From contig QKIY01000002.1 in NCBI GenBank assembly GCA_003250975.1, positions 1 to 64,000 of the forward strand: a stretch of 64,000 nt of DNA. Reading direction: 5' to 3'. This stretch comes from Gammaproteobacteria bacterium (lineage in GTDB: Bacteria > Pseudomonadota > Gammaproteobacteria > Eutrophobiales > Eutrophobiaceae). Shown here piece by piece: positions 7,857 to 40,643 of the stretch (the stretch's first letter is position 1; each line of letters begins with the position of its first letter). The translations under genes and the position numbers were made by a program. The notes under the pieces were generated by a model, which was given only the letters and a program-made list of their open reading frames with translations, was not told the DNA's origin and ran no database searches.

Positions 7857-8647
7857 ACATAGATTTTGCAACTATCCTCGTCCTTTTGACATTTCTTAGC
7901 GGGATGATCTGGTTGCTTGACAGCCTAGTTTTTTCCAGGAAGAGGCAGGCCGAATCAGCGGAAGGCGCAGAAGTCACGGCCAAGGAACCTTTGATTGTCG
8001 ATTATGCCCGATCTTTTTTCCCAATTTTTCTGATTGTTCTGATATTACGCTCGTTTGTTGCCGAACCCTTCAGAATCCCGTCTGCATCCATGATGCCCAC
8101 CCTGCTGATAGGTGATTTTATCCTGGTTAACAAATATGAATACGGTATCAGATTGCCCGTACTGAATAACAAGGTCATTGACTATAAAACACCACAAAGA
8201 GGTGAAATCATAGTCTTTCGCTACCCCCAGAATCCCAGTATTCCCTATATTAAACGTGTGATCGGTTTACCTGGTGACCATATCGTATACCGTGACAAGG
8301 TTCTCTATATTAACGGGAAGCCGGTGTCCCGGACCCAGGTGGGGCGTTATGATGCGGTTGGTGCAGGTAAAATGATGGATGGCGCGCTTCTGTTTGAAGA
8401 GGGCCTGGGAACAGTGGATCATCCCATCCTGATCGATCCACAGAGCTATTCTTTGAACGTGGATACCATGGTGCCTCCGGGCCAGTATTTTGTCCTGGGA
8501 GATAACCGTGATAACAGCAAGGACAGCCGCTACTGGGGTTTTGTACCCGATCAAAACCTTGTAGGCAGGGCGTTCATGATCTGGATGAACTGGGACAGCC
8601 GAAATGGTGGTATTGACTGGCAAAGAATTGGTACGATACTACAATAA
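7853..8647 (+). CDS. lepB: Signal peptidase I
   Basis: [27 protein letters not shown] motifs. Confidence 0.96.
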
Positions 8648-9764: not shown

Positions 9765-10679
9765 TTGTATAATTTACAAAATATGGACCAGTTGCTTGAT
9801 CATTGCGGTTTTGTCGCCATTGTTGGCCGCCCCAATGTCGGTAAATCGACACTCTTGAACCGGCTTGTCGGTCAGAAGATCAGTATTACCTCTCACAAAC
9901 CGCAGACTACGCGATCCCATCTGCTTGGTATCAAATCGGACAGCAGCAGCCAGATACTCTATCTGGATACCCCGGGTCTTCAGAAAAAAACATCGAGCCT
10001 CTTCAATCGTTATATGAACAGGGAAATATTCAATGCCCTGGCCGATGTAAATGTCGTAGTCCATGTAATTGAAGCTTTGCAATGGAACCATAATGACAAG
10101 GTCGTATTTGATCATATAAACAAGCTGAATGTGCCCCTGATACTTGCCATTAACAAGATTGATAAAATCAATGAAAAAGAAGAATTGCTACCTTTTATAA
10201 GCAGTATTGATAAGAAGGATGCATATCGGGAAATTGTACCGCTCTCTGCAAAATCAGGGAAAAATGTGAAGCTACTGGAAGAGCATATTAAAAATCTCCT
10301 GCCGTCTGGGGAGATGATCTATCCCGGTGAACAAATCAGCAATCGCAGTGAACGTTATTTTGCCTCTGAATTCATTCGTGAAAAACTGACGCGATTGCTT
10401 GGTGAAGAATTGCCTTATAATATTTCTGTCACAATAGACAAATTCGAAGATAAGGAAAATATAATAGAAATAAGCGCCACCATATGGGTATCCACGCCAG
10501 GGCAGAAGAAAATTGTTATTGGTAAAGCCGGGAGGATACTCAAAAAAACGGGCTCACAGGCCAGGAAAGACATGGAATCCATGTTTGGAAAAAAAGTGTT
10601 TCTTGAGACATGGGTTAAAATCAAGGATAAATGGACCAGTAATCCTGTGGCTCTCAAGCAGTTTGGCTATGATACATAA
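9765..10679 (+). CDS. era: GTPase Era
   Basis: GRPNVGKSTLLN, DTPG, NKID, KH domain; TTG start at 9765 or ATG at 9783. Confidence 0.95.
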   Translation: MYNLQNMDQLLDHCGFVAIVGRPNVGKSTLLNRLVGQKISITSHKPQTTRSHLLGIKSDSSSQILYLDTPGLQKKTSSLFNRYMNREIFNALADVNVVVHVIEALQWNHNDKVVFDHINKLNVPLILAINKIDKINEKEELLPFISSIDKKDAYREIVPLSAKSGKNVKLLEEHIKNLLPSGEMIYPGEQISNRSERYFASEFIREKLTRLLGEELPYNISVTIDKFEDKENIIEISATIWVSTPGQKKIVIGKAGRILKKTGSQARKDMESMFGKKVFLETWVKIKDKWTSNPVALKQFGYDT

Positions 10680-32346: not shown

Positions 32347-32386
32347 TTGTAAGCAACCTGTAAGTAAGCTGTAAACACTTTGTAGC
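32347..32386 (+). promoter_or_regulatory. Pho-box-like array upstream of PLD gene: four 7-mers at 11-bp period
   Basis: TTGTAAG-caac-CTGTAAG-taag-CTGTAAA-cact-TTGTAGC at 32347, 32358, 32369, 32380. Confidence 0.8.
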
Positions 32387-32409: not shown

Positions 32410-32415
32410 TAGACT
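32410..32415 (+). promoter_or_regulatory. Candidate -10 element TAGACT for the PLD gene
   Basis: TAGACT 63 bp after start of first repeat; same spacing as in the tatT promoter. Confidence 0.5.
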
Positions 32416-32500: not shown

Positions 32501-34132
32501 ATGTTGAATTTACTTAACGGATGGTGCGCTAGACCAGCAACAGTTTTAAAGTTATTGGCTATCGTATTTATCTTTTCCCTGTCCGGGTGCAGTGCACATG
32601 CGAGTCGTCCCTGGCTGGAAAGGGCCCAGAGCACTGAGGTTGCTATGGGTATTCACAACTCACCTCACCAAGTCGCACTCCTCTCAAATGGCCGTGTCGC
32701 GCTCAGATATCGATTGGATCTGATCAACGCGGCACGGCACTCTGTTCGTATCCAAACATTCATCCTCGGAGATGATCCTGTCGCGCGATTGATTATCAAT
32801 TCACTCGAGCGTGCCGCACAGAGAGGAATACATGTACAGTTGCTAGTGGATGCAATTCCACTTGGCGAGAGCGCAGCGCAATTGTTGGCCCGTGCCTCGC
32901 TTAATGAACATTTTGAGGTCCGCCTGTATAACCCCGTTCCGGACATGGACCTGAGCCGTATGAACCAGCGCATGCACAACAAGGTTATGGTAGTTGATGA
33001 ACGCATAGCCTTGACCGGAGGACGCAACTTGGCTGATGAATACTACGATGCTGATGAAAATCTCAATTTTCTCGATCTTGATATCGCTATCAAGGGTGCT
33101 GCAGTAGATGATATGAAGGCAAGCTTTGATGATTATTGGCTGCATGGCGATGAGCTTGATATTGACGTTGGCAATGAAATCATCATTACACCATATGAGA
33201 GATCCAGAATTATCGAGGCACTTAATGCCTCACTTGACCAGGAAGAAATGAAACTTGAATGGTTCAAGGTTAATAAAGTGGCCTTCTGGGCTGATCCGCC
33301 TGGTAAGCCGGATCCAAAACGCGATCCAAGAAGTTTTACCCTGCGCCTTGCCTCACTTGTTGCCACCGCTCAGGATGAACTGGTAATACAGACGCCGTAC
33401 TTCGTCTTGTCGAATAATGCCCAGCTTTTATTTAGTGATCTACGCCGACGTAATGTTCGTGTATCACTTTCAACAAACTCACTGGCGTCTACAGACAGTT
33501 GGTTGACCTATGCTCATGCATTACGGCAAAGGAGGCTCGTTTTAAATGATCTGGAAATTCAGGTTCGCGAGATACGTCCATATCCGGAAGCATTGCCTGA
33601 TTATGTGCCTGGCTGGCTTAATAATACTGGCATTACGAATATATATAGTGAGAAGCCACCACGGCTTTGTTTACACAATAAAGCGCTTGTTCAGGATGAT
33701 CGAATAGCAATGGTAGGTAGCTATAATCTCGACCCACGCTCAGCAAATTATAATACAGAGGTAGGAATCGTGATTTGGGATGAGCAATTCGCCAATGCAT
33801 TACGCAATATGATAGAAAGGCAGATGAGTCCAGGTAACATCTGGGTTGTTGCACGTAAGTCTCGTGCACTCCCGCTAGATTTTATTTATGATTTTTTTGA
33901 ACAAATTAACGCTGTTGCCCAGGATACGACCACATTGGATATCTGGCCACTTCGCTATAGCTCACTTTACGAACCAGAATCAGACGGGGAGACAGTATCA
34001 CCCAATGATCCGAATTTTTATATCGAACATCGTGATGTAGGGCTGTTCCCTGATGTTCCACCTGCCAGCAAAAAGATCATTCTCGTGGAACTAACACGCA
34101 TGTTTACTGGCGCTGCAAAACCTCTTCTTTGA
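32501..34132 (+). CDS. Phospholipase D / cardiolipin synthase family lipoprotein
   Basis: Lipobox FSLSGC; two HKD motifs MHNKVMVVDERIALTGGRN and LHNKALVQDDRIAMVGSYNLDPRS. Confidence 0.88.
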   Translation: MLNLLNGWCARPATVLKLLAIVFIFSLSGCSAHASRPWLERAQSTEVAMGIHNSPHQVALLSNGRVALRYRLDLINAARHSVRIQTFILGDDPVARLIINSLERAAQRGIHVQLLVDAIPLGESAAQLLARASLNEHFEVRLYNPVPDMDLSRMNQRMHNKVMVVDERIALTGGRNLADEYYDADENLNFLDLDIAIKGAAVDDMKASFDDYWLHGDELDIDVGNEIIITPYERSRIIEALNASLDQEEMKLEWFKVNKVAFWADPPGKPDPKRDPRSFTLRLASLVATAQDELVIQTPYFVLSNNAQLLFSDLRRRNVRVSLSTNSLASTDSWLTYAHALRQRRLVLNDLEIQVREIRPYPEALPDYVPGWLNNTGITNIYSEKPPRLCLHNKALVQDDRIAMVGSYNLDPRSANYNTEVGIVIWDEQFANALRNMIERQMSPGNIWVVARKSRALPLDFIYDFFEQINAVAQDTTTLDIWPLRYSSLYEPESDGETVSPNDPNFYIEHRDVGLFPDVPPASKKIILVELTRMFTGAAKPLL

Positions 34133-34252: not shown

Positions 34253-34292
34253 TTGTAAGTAATTTGTAAGGTGATTGTAAGCGATCAGTAGC
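34253..34292 (+). promoter_or_regulatory. Pho-box-like array upstream of tatT operon: four 7-mers at 11-bp period
   Basis: TTGTAAG-taat-TTGTAAG-gtga-TTGTAAG-cgat-CAGTAGC at 34253, 34264, 34275, 34286. Confidence 0.8.
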
Positions 34293-34315
34293 TATCCGGG
34301 TTCACATCAGTCACA

Positions 34316-34321
34316 TAGACT
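34316..34321 (+). promoter_or_regulatory. Candidate -10 element TAGACT for the tatT operon
   Basis: TAGACT 63 bp after start of first repeat, as in the PLD promoter. Confidence 0.5.
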
Positions 34322-34394: not shown

Positions 34395-35336
34395 GTGAAC
34401 AAGGGAATTACCATTTACATAAGCAATTCAACGCATGTCATCCTGTTGCTTACCATGTTTATTCTGATATCTGCTTCTGGCTGCTCAATCAAACGTATTG
34501 CCATCAATTCCGTTGCTGATTCTCTGGCGGGTAACAGCACCGTTTACGCGGCAGACAATGATATACAACTTGTGGCAGAAGCTACACCTTTTGCACTTAA
34601 AACGATCGAATCATTACTTGCAAGTGTACCAGACCATAAAGGACTTCTTCTCTCAGCTGCTAAAGGGTTTACGCAGTATGCATATGCCTATGTCCAGCTT
34701 CCTGCTGATGAATTGGAACAGGAAGATCTTATTATGGCAAATGCAGAACGTGAAAGGGCATTAAAGCTCTATTTGAGAGCTCGTGATTATGGTTTGCACG
34801 GACTTTCAACTGATCATCCTGGCTTTACTGCTAACCTGCGCCAGGATCCTGTATCAACACTTTCAGAAACAGGTAGCGATGATGTTGCCTTGCTTTACTG
34901 GACAGCAGCTGCCTGGGGGGCTGCGATTTCACTTGGAAAAGACAATCCTTATCTTCTTGCCGACATACCATCGATGGAGGCATTAATGACGCGCGCACTT
35001 GAAATTGATGAAAAATTTGAACACGGCGCTATTCATGTATTTTTTATTAGCTATGAAATGAGCAGAAGAACAATTTCTGACGGTGCCGGTGACCGCGCGC
35101 AGCAACATTTCAAAAGAGCCGTAGAGTTGTCGCAAGGACTCCAGGCATCTCCTTATGTAGCGATGGCAGAATCATTTTATATACCCATGCAGGACAGGGA
35201 CAGTTTTTCTGAATCACTGGAGATTGCGCTGGCAATTAATGTTGATGAGCACAAGGAATGGCGTCTTGCCAACCTGATTATGCAAAGGCGTGCACGCATC
35301 ATGTTATCAAGAATTGACGAATTTTTTATTGAATGA
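34395..35336 (+). CDS. TRAP transporter TatT component family lipoprotein
   Basis: Lipobox ISASGC; TatT-like helical repeats (LLSAAKGFTQYAYAYVQ, DVALLYWTAAAWGAAISLGKDNP); followed by DctP. Confidence 0.88.
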   Translation: MNKGITIYISNSTHVILLLTMFILISASGCSIKRIAINSVADSLAGNSTVYAADNDIQLVAEATPFALKTIESLLASVPDHKGLLLSAAKGFTQYAYAYVQLPADELEQEDLIMANAERERALKLYLRARDYGLHGLSTDHPGFTANLRQDPVSTLSETGSDDVALLYWTAAAWGAAISLGKDNPYLLADIPSMEALMTRALEIDEKFEHGAIHVFFISYEMSRRTISDGAGDRAQQHFKRAVELSQGLQASPYVAMAESFYIPMQDRDSFSESLEIALAINVDEHKEWRLANLIMQRRARIMLSRIDEFFIE

Positions 35337-35350
35337 TGGGGGAGTTGGAA

Positions 35351-36373
35351 ATGAATCTAAACAAGGATTTTTTTTATTTAAGTGTTATTGCCCTGGTATT
35401 TTCCGGAATTATTCAACCAGTTTGGGCAGAAGGGAAATCCATGACATTAAAAGTCGCCACGCGCATGCCAAAAGGAAACATATACTACCGAACTTTGCAA
35501 GATGTCGGTTCGGCATGGCGTGATGCCCAGGGAAATGATTCAAAATACATTATTTATCCTGATGGAACGCAGGGCAGTGAACAGGACACAGTAAGGAGAA
35601 TGCGTATCGGGCAACTTGATGTTGCCATGTTGTCAGTTGTAGGACTCAAGGAAATCGACGAATCCGTGTCTGCGCTCCAGCTTATGCCGCTGGTTTTCCG
35701 TTCGTGGGATGAATTTGATTATGTTCATAAACACTTAAGGCCTGAACTCGAACGCAAATTACTCGAAAAGGGTTTTGTCGTACTGTACTGGGGGGAGGGT
35801 GGCTGGGTCCAATTTTTCTCTACAGAACCCAGACTAACCCCGGATGATTTCAAGACGGCCCGTATATTTACCTGGGCTGGAACGCCATCGCAAGTTGACT
35901 TGATGAAATCGCTTGGATATCAACCGGTCGTGCTTGGCCTTTCTGATATTTTGGCTTCATTACAGACGGGCATGATAGATACCGTACCCGCTTCACCCTT
36001 ATGGGCTCTTGCTTTCCAGTTCTATGGTACCACGAATCATATGTTACGCATGAATTATGCACCGATTGTTGGCGCGACCATTATTACAAAAAGAACCTGG
36101 GACAAAATGACACCTGAAGCACGTGAAGCAATGCGCATTGCTTCACATGAAGCTGAAAAAAAACTGCGGTCCAACAGGGATGTCCAGGATGAAGTAAGCA
36201 TCATGGCAATGCAGGAAAACGGGCTTGTCGTACATGAAATATCTCCGGAAGTAGAACAGGAATGGATGACCATGATCCAGAGAGTTTGGCCGCTCGTACG
36301 TGGAAATATTGTTCCTGCAGAGATGTTCGATAGGGTTCAGAACCTGCTTGCTGAATACCGTATTCAACATTAA
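35351..36373 (+). CDS. TRAP transporter solute-binding protein (DctP/TatP-type)
   Basis: Signal peptide; DctP-like LKVATRMPKGNIYYR...YPDGTQGSEQDTVRRMRIGQLDVAMLS; start at 35351 has a better RBS than 35333. Confidence 0.9.
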   Translation: MNLNKDFFYLSVIALVFSGIIQPVWAEGKSMTLKVATRMPKGNIYYRTLQDVGSAWRDAQGNDSKYIIYPDGTQGSEQDTVRRMRIGQLDVAMLSVVGLKEIDESVSALQLMPLVFRSWDEFDYVHKHLRPELERKLLEKGFVVLYWGEGGWVQFFSTEPRLTPDDFKTARIFTWAGTPSQVDLMKSLGYQPVVLGLSDILASLQTGMIDTVPASPLWALAFQFYGTTNHMLRMNYAPIVGATIITKRTWDKMTPEAREAMRIASHEAEKKLRSNRDVQDEVSIMAMQENGLVVHEISPEVEQEWMTMIQRVWPLVRGNIVPAEMFDRVQNLLAEYRIQH

Positions 36374-36408: not shown

Positions 36409-38220
36409 ATGAATGACACGCTGGAAAACAATCCCTTGAAGTTGATGCCTGGTAATGAGGGTCGCCTACTTAAAAGGTTTTTTGTCAGGTCAATAGAAAA
36501 ATTATCCTGTCTTGACGCATTACAGGGAATATATGAAAAGTTGCCCGCATCCGACAAACCCGGGGTTTTCCTGGAACAATTGGTAGACCAGATGAATATC
36601 AGCTATGAAACGGGAGGAACAGAAAGAAATATACCTAGGAACGGTAGAACAATTGTCATTGCGAATCATCCTTTTGGTGCTGCTGACGGATTAATCATGG
36701 CGCATTTACTAACGAAACTCCGTCCAGATTTGAAAATACTCGCAAATGAAGTATTACAGCGCATAGAGGGAATACGCAGTCTGATATTTCCGGTTGACGT
36801 TTTTAACAATGACATTTCCCTCAACCAGACTTCCATGCGTGGTGCTATTCGCTGGCTGGAACGGGGCGGCCTGCTACTTGTATTTCCTTCCGGTGTGGTC
36901 AGTCATTTCCGACCAGGCAAATGGAAGATTAATGACCCTGATTGGCATGAAACGGTGGCACGTATCGCCTTAAGGACATGTACACCAGTTGTACCCGTTT
37001 ACATTCATGGGCATAACAGCCTGGCATTTCAGCTCCTGGGTATGATTCATCCCCTGTTAAGGACATTCATGCTCCCACGGGAATTTTTGAAACAAACAGG
37101 TAAAGAGATGCATTTATCCATCGGCAAGTGTATCCCCGTTAACACGCTGCGTCGTGTGGGAGACTATCATGGCATTACTAATTTTCTAAGATTCTGCACC
37201 TATACACTTGAAGGCATCATTCCCAGGGAAGTGGGCCTGCAGAAAGAGTTAAAACAAGTAAAAGAAAATTATTGCAACAGGAAAAGGACCAGTAAAGAAC
37301 TGCACAGCGTTGAAATCAAACATCTTCCGCGTCAGCAGTGCCTGGTACAGGTGGGAAACCTGCAGGTCTATTATGCGCTGGCCAACCAGATCCCCTGGAC
37401 ATTACAGGAAATAGGGCGCATGCGTGAAATTACCTTCAGAGAGATAGGGGAGGGAACGGGTAAGGATGTAGATCTTTCACTTTATGACAGTTATTACTAC
37501 CACCTGTTCATATGGAATAATGAAAAGAAAGAAATTATTGGAGCATACCGCCTGGGCCTAGTCGATGAAATCCTTAAAAAATATGGCATCAATGGTCTGT
37601 ATACTTATTCTCTGTTCAATTACAGACGAAATCTGTTGAAGCAAATCAATCCTGCAATTGAACTGGGCCGATCTTTTATACGAAAAGAGTACCAGCAAAG
37701 TTTCCTGGCATTAAATCTGCTGTGGCAAGGAATCGGAGTATTTGTTGCAGGTCTGAAAAAGTATTCGGTTCTCTTTGGCCCGGTAAGTATCAGTGATAAA
37801 TATGATCATTTGTCCAGAAAGTTCATGATTGATTGCCTGCAGCTTAACCTTACAGAGGATCAGTTATCAGGTTCTGTAAAACCAAGAAACCCATTTCGCA
37901 GCGAAGGGAAACAATTCTGGAGTGCCTCTGAATTAAGGATGTTCAGTGACATCAACCTGGTCTCTAACGTCGTATCGCAAATTGAGAAAGACAACAAGGG
38001 ACTGCCTGTATTATTTCGGCAATACATAAAACTGGGAGGGAAATTTCTTTGCTTTAACGTTGACGATAATTTCAGTGATGTTGTCGATGGCCTGATCATG
38101 GTTGATCTGACACGTACTGATCGCAGGATGCTTGATAAATATATGGGACAGGAAAAGGCAGCAATGTTCATAGAATACCACGAGAATAAGGACGAATTTT
38201 TCAACTTTAGATTGCTATGA
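36409..38220 (+). CDS. Bifunctional acyltransferase, OlsF-like (ornithine lipid synthesis): N-terminal PlsC-type plus C-terminal OlsB-type GNAT
   Basis: N-terminal VIANHPFGAADGLI and FPSGVVSHF; C-terminal REITFREIGEGTGKDVDLSLYDSYYYHLFIWN...GAYRLG...ELGRSFIRKEYQ typical of OlsB/hemolysin-type N-acyltransferases; about 600 aa. Confidence 0.8.
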   Translation: MNDTLENNPLKLMPGNEGRLLKRFFVRSIEKLSCLDALQGIYEKLPASDKPGVFLEQLVDQMNISYETGGTERNIPRNGRTIVIANHPFGAADGLIMAHLLTKLRPDLKILANEVLQRIEGIRSLIFPVDVFNNDISLNQTSMRGAIRWLERGGLLLVFPSGVVSHFRPGKWKINDPDWHETVARIALRTCTPVVPVYIHGHNSLAFQLLGMIHPLLRTFMLPREFLKQTGKEMHLSIGKCIPVNTLRRVGDYHGITNFLRFCTYTLEGIIPREVGLQKELKQVKENYCNRKRTSKELHSVEIKHLPRQQCLVQVGNLQVYYALANQIPWTLQEIGRMREITFREIGEGTGKDVDLSLYDSYYYHLFIWNNEKKEIIGAYRLGLVDEILKKYGINGLYTYSLFNYRRNLLKQINPAIELGRSFIRKEYQQSFLALNLLWQGIGVFVAGLKKYSVLFGPVSISDKYDHLSRKFMIDCLQLNLTEDQLSGSVKPRNPFRSEGKQFWSASELRMFSDINLVSNVVSQIEKDNKGLPVLFRQYIKLGGKFLCFNVDDNFSDVVDGLIMVDLTRTDRRMLDKYMGQEKAAMFIEYHENKDEFFNFRLL

Positions 38221-40079
38221 ATATATACACTGAAATATTCAGGACGGATGGCAACAACAAGATGACTTGGTCACTTTCCACATTCAAGTCATTGTTGATA
38301 TCTTTTGAAGATCTTGTGCTTGCCTTTGCACTTTCATTAATGGTCGTACTCCCGATTGTTGAGATATTTTTGAGAGCAATATTCAATATTGGAATAGACA
38401 ATGTTAACGGCATCATACTGCATTTGACACTTGTTGTAGGCACTCTGGGTGCCGCAATTGCTGCACGGGAAGATAAATTACTTGCATTTGCCGGTGCAAA
38501 ATTATTAAGAGGGAAGACTGCCTATATAACCAACCTGTTTTCAACGACAGTATCTATATCAGTATGTGCGGTGCTTCTATACGGCAGTATTACATACATG
38601 CAATTCGAAAGGACAGGCGGCGTTGAACTTGCTTATGGATTACCTGTTTGGGCGGTCTTAATTGTATTTCCTGTAGCATTTATATTAATCGCGTACAGGC
38701 TCTTGAAAAGATCAACAACCGATCCGGTTATAATAGCAGGTTCTCTACTTGTCAGTTTAGCAATCATAGCTTTTATATATTATATGCCTTTTACAACCCC
38801 GGTATTACGCATCTTGTCAGTTACGCTGCTGATAATTGCAGCAATATTCGGGCAGCCAGTATTTGTCATTGTTGGTGGCGCGGCAATGGTTTTAATCTGG
38901 ACTGAAGGTATCCCTATTGCTTCCATCACACTTGACCATTACAGCTTGGTTTCAAATCCATCGTTGCCTGCAATACCCCTGTTTACATTGACTGGCTATT
39001 TGCTGGCAGAAAGCAGGGCGCCTCAACGCCTGGTAAAATTATTCGATTCATTGTTCGGCCAGATTAATGGCGGCCCTGCAATTGCTACTGTTCTGGCATG
39101 CACTTTCTTCACATGTTTTACCGGCGCTTCAGGTGTAACCATACTTGCACTGGGAGGCCTGGTAATACCTTTGCTGATCAATGCAGGGTATTCAGGAAAA
39201 TCAGCACTTGGGTTATTAACTGGTGGCGGATCTGCAGGTGTTTTATTGCTGCCGGCATTACCATTGATACTTTATGCAATTCTTGCGCAGATCCCTATTA
39301 AAGAAATGTTTCTGGGGGGAATTCTGCCGGCCCTGTTAATCCTTCTTATTGCTGCAGCATGGGGTATAAGCAGGCAGCCTAAAACAAGACAGGCAGAGTC
39401 GCGCACATTTGACAAAAAACGGATATTTGACGCGGCATGGAATGCAAAATGGGAATTATTTATACCAGTAGTGTTAATTTCCGGAATGTTCAGTGGTTTA
39501 ATGACGCCACTCGAAGCTGCCGCAATAACAGCATTTTATACCTGCATAATAGAGGTTTTCATCTACAAGGACCTGTCATTAAGGGCCGATGTGCCACGGG
39601 CATTGGTCAAATGCGGTTTGCTTATTGGTGGAATTCTACTGATTCTGGGTGTCGCGCTCGGATTGACCAATTATATGGTCGATGCCCAGATCCCTGATAT
39701 TGCAGTTGAGTGGGTGCAGCATGCGATTAAATCTCCATGGCTGTTTCTTCTCGTCCTCAACTGTTTTCTCCTGATTGTCGGTTTTTTTATAGACATTTTT
39801 TCAGCAATAGTTGTACTTACCCCGTTAATCATACCAATGGGCCTGGCATTCGGGATCCATCCTGTACACCTTGGCATCGTTTTTCTTGCCAATCTTGAAC
39901 TGGGTTACCTGACACCACCAGTGGGCATGAACCTTTTCTTTTCATCTGCGAGGTTTGAAAAACCACTGCTTGAAGTCTGTATGTCTGTCATCCCCCTGTT
40001 TCTTTTCCTTGCGGTTGGTGTGCTGGTTATCACGTTTGTACCCTGGTTAAGTACTTATCTGCCAGGATTGATTAAATAA
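38217..40079 (+). CDS. Fused TRAP transporter DctQM permease
   Basis: N-terminal 4-TM DctQ-like region plus DctM (FTCFTGASGVTILALGGLVIPLL; LTPPVGMNLFFSSARF); ATG overlaps olsF stop (ATGA). Confidence 0.92.
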   Translation: MNIYTEIFRTDGNNKMTWSLSTFKSLLISFEDLVLAFALSLMVVLPIVEIFLRAIFNIGIDNVNGIILHLTLVVGTLGAAIAAREDKLLAFAGAKLLRGKTAYITNLFSTTVSISVCAVLLYGSITYMQFERTGGVELAYGLPVWAVLIVFPVAFILIAYRLLKRSTTDPVIIAGSLLVSLAIIAFIYYMPFTTPVLRILSVTLLIIAAIFGQPVFVIVGGAAMVLIWTEGIPIASITLDHYSLVSNPSLPAIPLFTLTGYLLAESRAPQRLVKLFDSLFGQINGGPAIATVLACTFFTCFTGASGVTILALGGLVIPLLINAGYSGKSALGLLTGGGSAGVLLLPALPLILYAILAQIPIKEMFLGGILPALLILLIAAAWGISRQPKTRQAESRTFDKKRIFDAAWNAKWELFIPVVLISGMFSGLMTPLEAAAITAFYTCIIEVFIYKDLSLRADVPRALVKCGLLIGGILLILGVALGLTNYMVDAQIPDIAVEWVQHAIKSPWLFLLVLNCFLLIVGFFIDIFSAIVVLTPLIIPMGLAFGIHPVHLGIVFLANLELGYLTPPVGMNLFFSSARFEKPLLEVCMSVIPLFLFLAVGVLVITFVPWLSTYLPGLIK

Positions 40080-40136: not shown

Positions 40137-40643
40137 TTAATCTGCTGATTCTGTTTCGACACCGATTTTAACCAGCTGCGCCTGTAAGTTTTCCATGTCC
40201 AGTTTTTCCGGTGGCAGGGCAGTCAGAATCCTGATGCTGTGTTCCAATTTACAATAGGCCTTCAGGAAACTGTTACGGGCCTCATTTTCATCCCTGTAGG
40301 TCTTGTCCGGGTCTTCGACACCCCAATGTACCATTATCGGCCGGCCGGGCCAGACAGGGCAGGTTTCTCCAGCCGCGTTGTCACAAACGGTAATAATAAT
40401 ATCCATTTCAGGCGCACCAGCGGTAAACTCATCCCAACTTTTGCTGCGCAAATGGGATATATCATGACCGTATTCACGGAGGATAGTCTGTGCCATCGGG
40501 TGCACCTTGCCCCTGGGGTGGCTTCCGGCGCTAAAGGCCTTGAACCTCCCGGAGCCCCAGTATTGCAATAAGGCTTCGGCCATAATGCTACGGGCTGAGT
40601 TACCTGTACAAAGAAACAGCACATTAAGGGGTTTATCACGCAT
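40137..40643 (-). CDS. arsC: Arsenate reductase, low-MW phosphatase type
   Basis: VLFLCTGNSARSIMAEALL; ITVCDNAAGETCPVWPG. Confidence 0.92.
   Translation of the reverse strand: MRDKPLNVLFLCTGNSARSIMAEALLQYWGSGRFKAFSAGSHPRGKVHPMAQTILREYGHDISHLRSKSWDEFTAGAPEMDIIITVCDNAAGETCPVWPGRPIMVHWGVEDPDKTYRDENEARNSFLKAYCKLEHSIRILTALPPEKLDMENLQAQLVKIGVETESAD

Follow-up and report, generated by a model that had tools for sequence, protein, structure and literature searches.

What regulates the four 11-bp direct repeats in front of the tatT operon, and can the hexamer TAGACT, which starts 23 bp beyond the last of them, be the -10 element of a promoter? The earlier note on this DNA described the region (34253-34321) as Pho-like, matched in layout to the promoter of a phospholipase D (PLD) gene, and remarked that the gap was long for a Pho promoter. 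The window, a stretch of 64,000 nucleotides of gammaproteobacterial DNA, was therefore examined together with the rest of the 2.3-Mb genome (G000) and with related and unrelated genomes. Coordinates are collected in the table below.

Table. Positions of operators, predicted promoter elements and genes (window coordinates unless a contig is named).
Feature	Position	Strand	Description
tatT-operon operator	34253..34292	+	four heptamers with 4-bp spacers
tatT heptamers	34253-34259, 34264-34270, 34275-34281, 34286-34292	+	TTGTAAG, TTGTAAG, TTGTAAG, CAGTAGC (degenerate)
tatT predicted -10	34316..34321	+	TAGACT, 30 bp past start of last heptamer
tatT transcription start, inferred, approximate	34328	+	~7 nt past -10, from -10 position alone
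PLD-gene operator	32347..32386	+	11-bp period, four units
PLD heptamers	32347, 32358, 32369, 32380	+	TTGTAAG, CTGTAAG, CTGTAAA, TTGTAGC
PLD predicted -10	32410..32415	+	TAGACT, +30 from last unit
PLD gene	32501..34132	+	phospholipase D/cardiolipin-synthase-like lipoprotein, two PLD domains; PF13091 1.3e-35, PF00614
tatT	34395..35336	+	TRAP transporter T-component, TPR lipoprotein, GTG start; PF16811 1.2e-82
dctP	35333..36373	+	dctP-type solute-binding protein; PF03480 2e-33; NF037995 above cut-off
olsF-like	36409..38220	+	OlsF-like bifunctional acyltransferase (PlsC-type and GNAT domains); PF19576, PF13444
dctQM	38217..40079	+	fused DctQ-DctM TRAP permease; PF04290, PF06808
Third array	C9:1743		outside window
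Fourth array	C30:40912		outside window
Large STAND/SARP protein	G000:C30:176723-180088		1122 aa, outside window; sole such protein in genome
Own Pho promoters (pstS, phoB)	L152 (G000:C35) ~8326-8385 and 10470-10519	-	read from sequence

Operator arrays and their distance to a predicted -10 element

The sequence confirmed exactly the repeat starts and the TAGACT position reported for tatT, and the PLD promoter had the identical layout: four units, TAGACT, and distances to it of 63 bp from the first repeat and 30 bp from the last. A downstream stretch said to be partly common to both promoters (TAGACTT....G..AAAGA) was not conserved, ACTT(t) alone being weakly kept, and a conserved -35 element was not present in the tatT promoter. 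Within the window, three in-phase YTGTAR units were confined to the tatT and PLD arrays, which gave three overlapping matches; 200 Markov-1 simulated windows contained such triplets at a mean of 0.0. Across the whole genome, the pattern YTGTMAN5YTGTMAN5YTGTMA occurred without mismatch at four places, versus about 0.01 expected. Four units are present at PLD and tatT, three at the C9 and C30 arrays. In all four arrays, the start of the last unit is followed at exactly 30 bp by TA(G/A)ACT; aligned on the last heptamer, the four read TAGACT, TAGACT, TAAACT and TAGACT. Hence, the distance that is fixed is the one from the last unit; that from the first repeat, which had also been taken as fixed, is 63 bp with four units and 52 bp with three. 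A relaxed genome search (two units plus -10) returned the four known sites as strong members and no more. Its two-mismatch matches were not above the reversed control, and the genes next to TGTMA matches with two mismatches elsewhere (L012-L017) look unrelated.

The same distance was found in relatives. A congener (G001) has TACACT (tatT), TAGACT (PLD) and TAGACT (OMP) at +30, and a member of another genus of the family (G014) has TATATT at +30 of its tatT array. TANNNT thus lies exactly at +30 in 8/8 sites from three genomes, while at any other offset it occurs in fewer than three of the eight. The repeats, whose loss in relatives keeping the genes would have spoken against the promoter, are retained in both close relatives with close tatT orthologs: G001 keeps all four tatT units, including the odd last CAGTAGC, which reads CTGTAGG in G014, and the PLD operator of G001 retains its four units. 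The 23-bp gap between last unit and -10 is unrelated in sequence between orthologs but constant in length; since the sequence has diverged, the length is what is kept. Because the +30 spacing is constant across genomes despite this divergence, TAGACT is very probably the -10 element of the tatT and PLD promoters. A fifth heptamer nearer to the -10, which would restore a distance of 17-19 bp, was looked for and none was conserved. The earlier note had offered two ways out of the long gap, that TAGACT is not the -10 or that the activation geometry differs. The former is made improbable by TANNNT at +30 in all eight sites, and the concern is resolved in favor of a predicted geometry that differs. 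If the -10 spans -12 to -7, the center of the last two 11-bp repeats would fall at about -42, a class-II position. The conserved architecture also supports the co-regulation of PLD and tatT that had been proposed from their matched spacing.

The gene at 36409-38220 aligned over its full length with NF052615 (orn_lipid_OlsF) at 401 bits, below the 620-bit cut-off of this NCBIfam equivalog, and on this score merits the name OlsF-like only. The two arrays outside the window head an outer membrane (OM) barrel with a lipoprotein, and a lipoprotein pair. Sites in Betaproteobacteria (see below) head tatT and, among others, genes for lipoprotein-like proteins and a histidine kinase, and no recognised phosphate gene lies downstream of any of the own or betaproteobacterial sites. 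The probable theme is a small envelope/lipid regulon comprising PLD, tatT-dctP-olsF-like-dctQM, the OM barrel with its lipoprotein, and the lipoprotein pair. TatT-type TRAP transporters would in this way be tied to an OlsF-like acyltransferase and PLD through common regulation. For TatT-family proteins lipid handling has been proposed, and the ligands of TatT-TRAP systems are suspected to include lipids (PMC10942540).

Two features were observed in the surroundings of the arrays. A low-molecular-weight phosphatase/ArsC-like gene (window 40137-40643, minus strand) is convergent with the TRAP operon, in the same order in G001. A partial second copy of the 5S rRNA 3' end (L007, ~1395-1450 of G000:C9) is found directly ahead of the C9 array, on the downstream side of the rRNA operon.

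A candidate regulator and its association with the arrays

The genome encodes a single large STAND/SARP protein, of 1122 aa, with the domain order AAA-TPR_MalT-Trans_reg_C-BTAD. An AAA/NACHT-like N-terminus with GPPGSGKTT is followed by the TPR_MalT region, PF00486 (896-953) and PF03704 (1007-1118). The protein thus has the OmpR-type winged helix followed by BTAD that marks the SARP family, and the nucleotide-binding and TPR domains of a large SARP, in an order unlike that of AfsR. Profile comparison matched its C-terminus to AfsR (8hvr, 1.9e-7) and EmbR (2fez, 1.2e-5). The AlphaFold model (pLDDT 86) matched AfsR/EmbR in Foldseek with E ~1e-8 and TM 0.71-0.73. The MalT model NF003420 scored 186 bits, below its cut-off. 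We consider it likely that this protein is the activator of the four promoters, to which it is predicted to bind. In the own genome, two findings count against the assignment: its gene is unlinked to all four sites, and no array was found in the flanks of the gene.

Orthologs of tatT were taken from named genomes. Looser 11-bp arrays, (C/T)(G/T)GTAA(G/C), were present near tatT in the Betaproteobacteria L062, L061, L050 and L087, and L051 has a partial one. The 1122-aa protein has homologs encoded in the tatT neighborhood: in L051 the homolog immediately precedes tatT, and in L062 and L087 it is no more than a few kb away. No array was found at the tatT orthologs of Planctomycetes, Verrucomicrobia and Acidobacteria, nor at those of most betas without a nearby regulator. 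A strict pattern (GTAASN6GTAASN6GTAAS) was then counted in 62 genomes, a set that was selected via tatT and carries shared ancestry; it was present in 7/15 genomes encoding a full-length homolog, as against 1/47 lacking one (Fisher p = 9e-5; p = 0.001 without the query genus). The reversed control pattern gave one match.

When 369 genomes of the class were drawn independently, ten other motif genomes emerged, three of which (G429, G037, G040) carry perfect 11-bp tandems that look like simple repeats and were set aside as such. A homolog was present in 5/10 motif genomes versus 8/35 others; this presence/absence signal is weak, and the case in the second set therefore rests on adjacency. The array is about 0.2 kb (G047), 1.1 kb (G163) and 0.17 kb (G254) from the homologous regulator, and in G239 and G079, too, an array adjoins the regulator. 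Chance would give about 0.001 arrays in all flanks examined, a figure that overstates the case, some genomes having been picked for holding the motif. When 33 regulators were placed in a tree, 11 of the 12 members of one clade (support 99/98) came from motif genomes, and the motif label was more clustered than in all 500 shuffles. The clade member without motif, G286, is a fragmentary congener of G163. Conversely, G014 and G254 are motif genomes with a regulator outside the clade; the tatT promoter is present in G014, and the one homolog found in this 83%-complete bin groups with G002. As G079 and G286 illustrate, the co-occurrence of regulator and tatT motif is not strict. Because the heptamer form matches that of PimR (see below) and the arrays are linked to SARP regulators, the reading of the tatT and PLD arrays as a predicted SARP-type operator is strongly supported.

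Large SARP/STAND regulators are represented by very many paralogs in each of two Burkholderiales-type genomes, G083 and G090 (those of L075 and L083), with 25 and 16 matches. These genomes lack the GTAAS array, and the paralogs may use other heptamers.

Alternative regulators and the resemblance to Pho boxes

Binding to 11-bp direct repeats is also known of OmpR-type regulators, and another two-component regulator of this family could drive the promoters, either the CopR/HprR-like L028 or the sortase-system PdsR L029. Both are retained in G001, with 95.7% and 80% identity, respectively. However, the upstream regions of L028 and L029 contain no array, neither was found in the promoter-bearing G014 (83% completeness), and the motif elsewhere is unlinked to them, while SARP regulators are physically linked to it in several lineages. 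We therefore regard this explanation as unlikely. The CopR-like regulator (L028/L040) and its kinase adjoin a tRNA gene, and the regulator is ~96% identical between G000 and G001, against 66-70% for other shared proteins that were compared; the pair probably reflects recent horizontal transfer. The proteobacterial dedicated-sortase response regulator (L029/L043/L046; TIGR03787) lies beside an OmpA-like gene in G000, G001 and G025.

A second explanation is that PhoB binds the four repeats and that phosphate starvation induces PLD and the tatT operon. Such a role would fit ornithine-lipid synthesis of the OlsF type combined with phospholipid turnover. PhoBR and pst are encoded in the genome, and OlsF VC0489 of V. 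cholerae is under PhoB control (PMC12186959). Pho boxes are likewise 11-bp direct repeats, of 7 conserved and 4 variable bp, bound by an OmpR-type winged helix (PMC4415409), and this repeat form is present at tatT. The own phoB promoter itself carries TTGTAATCAAACTGTAAC. As read from the sequence, with starts unmapped, it consists of TTGTAAT/CTGTAAC, a box of TGTAA type, with TTAAAT at a distance of 17 bp from the last unit; the own pstS promoter has TTGTCTT/CTGTCAC/GTTTCAT/GTGTCAT, an array with a TGTCA-type core, followed by CACACT, again at 17 bp. This distance is E. coli-like, whereas that at tatT is 30 bp, and the genome thus holds two predicted promoter classes, of 17 bp and 30 bp. Moreover, G001 (98% complete) retains three 30-bp promoters, yet PhoB was not found among its three Trans_reg_C proteins. 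Nor does a phosphate gene follow any of the other arrays found. Regulation by PhoB is very improbable, and PhoB was rejected on the promoter geometry and on the lack of a PhoB hit in G001. With the motif tracking the SARP/STAND clade, the label "Pho-like" is not supported in the PhoB sense. The resemblance comes from the winged helix of OmpR/PhoB type, common to both families, which gives 11-bp direct repeats. As a caution, 11-bp TGTAA repeats should not be called Pho boxes until the distance to the -10 has been checked.

That the constant 30 bp is a relic of a recently duplicated promoter cassette, with no functional constraint behind it, is barely credible: PLD adjoins tatT and shares TAGACTTTCCCGT with L008, but across the four own sites and their orthologs the heptamer spacers and the 23-bp gap vary in sequence and not in length, and the number of units changes (3 or 4) without a change in the last-unit distance.

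Proposed mechanism and comparison with known systems

On the preferred reading, that of a SARP-type operator served by the 1122-aa protein, region 34253-34321 would be an activator-dependent sigma-70-type promoter whose operator consists of four heptamers of the form YTGTAAG. By analogy with AfsR and MalT, a signal would be sensed by the MalT-like TPR part of the protein, leading to an ATP-state oligomer. The oligomer may occupy the heptamers in a head-to-tail arrangement, with each heptamer taking up one protomer, and bring in RNA polymerase at a promoter that is weak, having the -10 TAGACT and no -35. The last heptamer would then occupy about -42 to -36 and permit a contact with sigma region 4 as in class-II activators. 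PLD, tatT-dctP-olsF-like-dctQM and the genes behind the two arrays outside the window would be co-activated, and gene content suggests that the signal is envelope or lipid status.

To our knowledge, SARPs have been studied almost only as activators of Streptomyces antibiotic clusters, and our literature search on SARP regulators found no characterised proteobacterial large SARP. We lean towards the view that the arrays belong to an undescribed system of Beta- and Gammaproteobacteria, in which a STAND ATPase with a C-terminal SARP domain switches on an envelope/lipid-trafficking regulon through arrays fixed at 30 bp ahead of the -10. The analysis provides a proteobacterial SARP clade with a concrete regulon and with predictions for its binding site and promoter geometry.

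The candidate shares with MalT an N-terminal ATPase, a TPR sensor and a C-terminal DNA-binding domain, which is a LuxR-type HTH in MalT and Trans_reg_C plus BTAD in the candidate. AfsR, the best structural match of its C-terminus, is likewise of the large SARP type and has nucleotide-binding and TPR domains, in the reverse order (PMC10936776). The afs box of Streptomyces coelicolor also has 11-bp direct repeats, a weak -10 and a poor -35; it is centered at -29.5, with 8 bp separating the last repeat from the -10 (PMC10936776), as opposed to an inferred center at about -42 and 23 bp here. PimR, a SARP-LAL of Streptomyces natalensis, joins a SARP domain to a large ATP-binding part (LAL), and its operator comprises three heptamer direct repeats, CGGCAAG, with 4-nt spacers and does not overlap the -35 (PMC5930380). 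This consensus is close to CGGTAAG of the betaproteobacterial sites and to YTGTAAG here. The SARP domain is N-terminal in PimR but C-terminal in the candidate, and PimR serves an actinobacterial antibiotic cluster, whereas the present arrays head envelope and TRAP genes. At least two heptameric direct repeats with a period of 11 bp, one helical turn, characterise SARP operators and were found at all sites, which have three or four units each; the Streptomyces rule that the 3' repeat lies 8 bp from the -10 does not apply, the distance being 23 bp at 8/8 sites. A class-II-like geometry is not described for SARPs in the literature examined. Because the SARP form is present but the 8-bp rule fails, we classify the predicted operator as a variant of the SARP operator, not as a standard SARP promoter.
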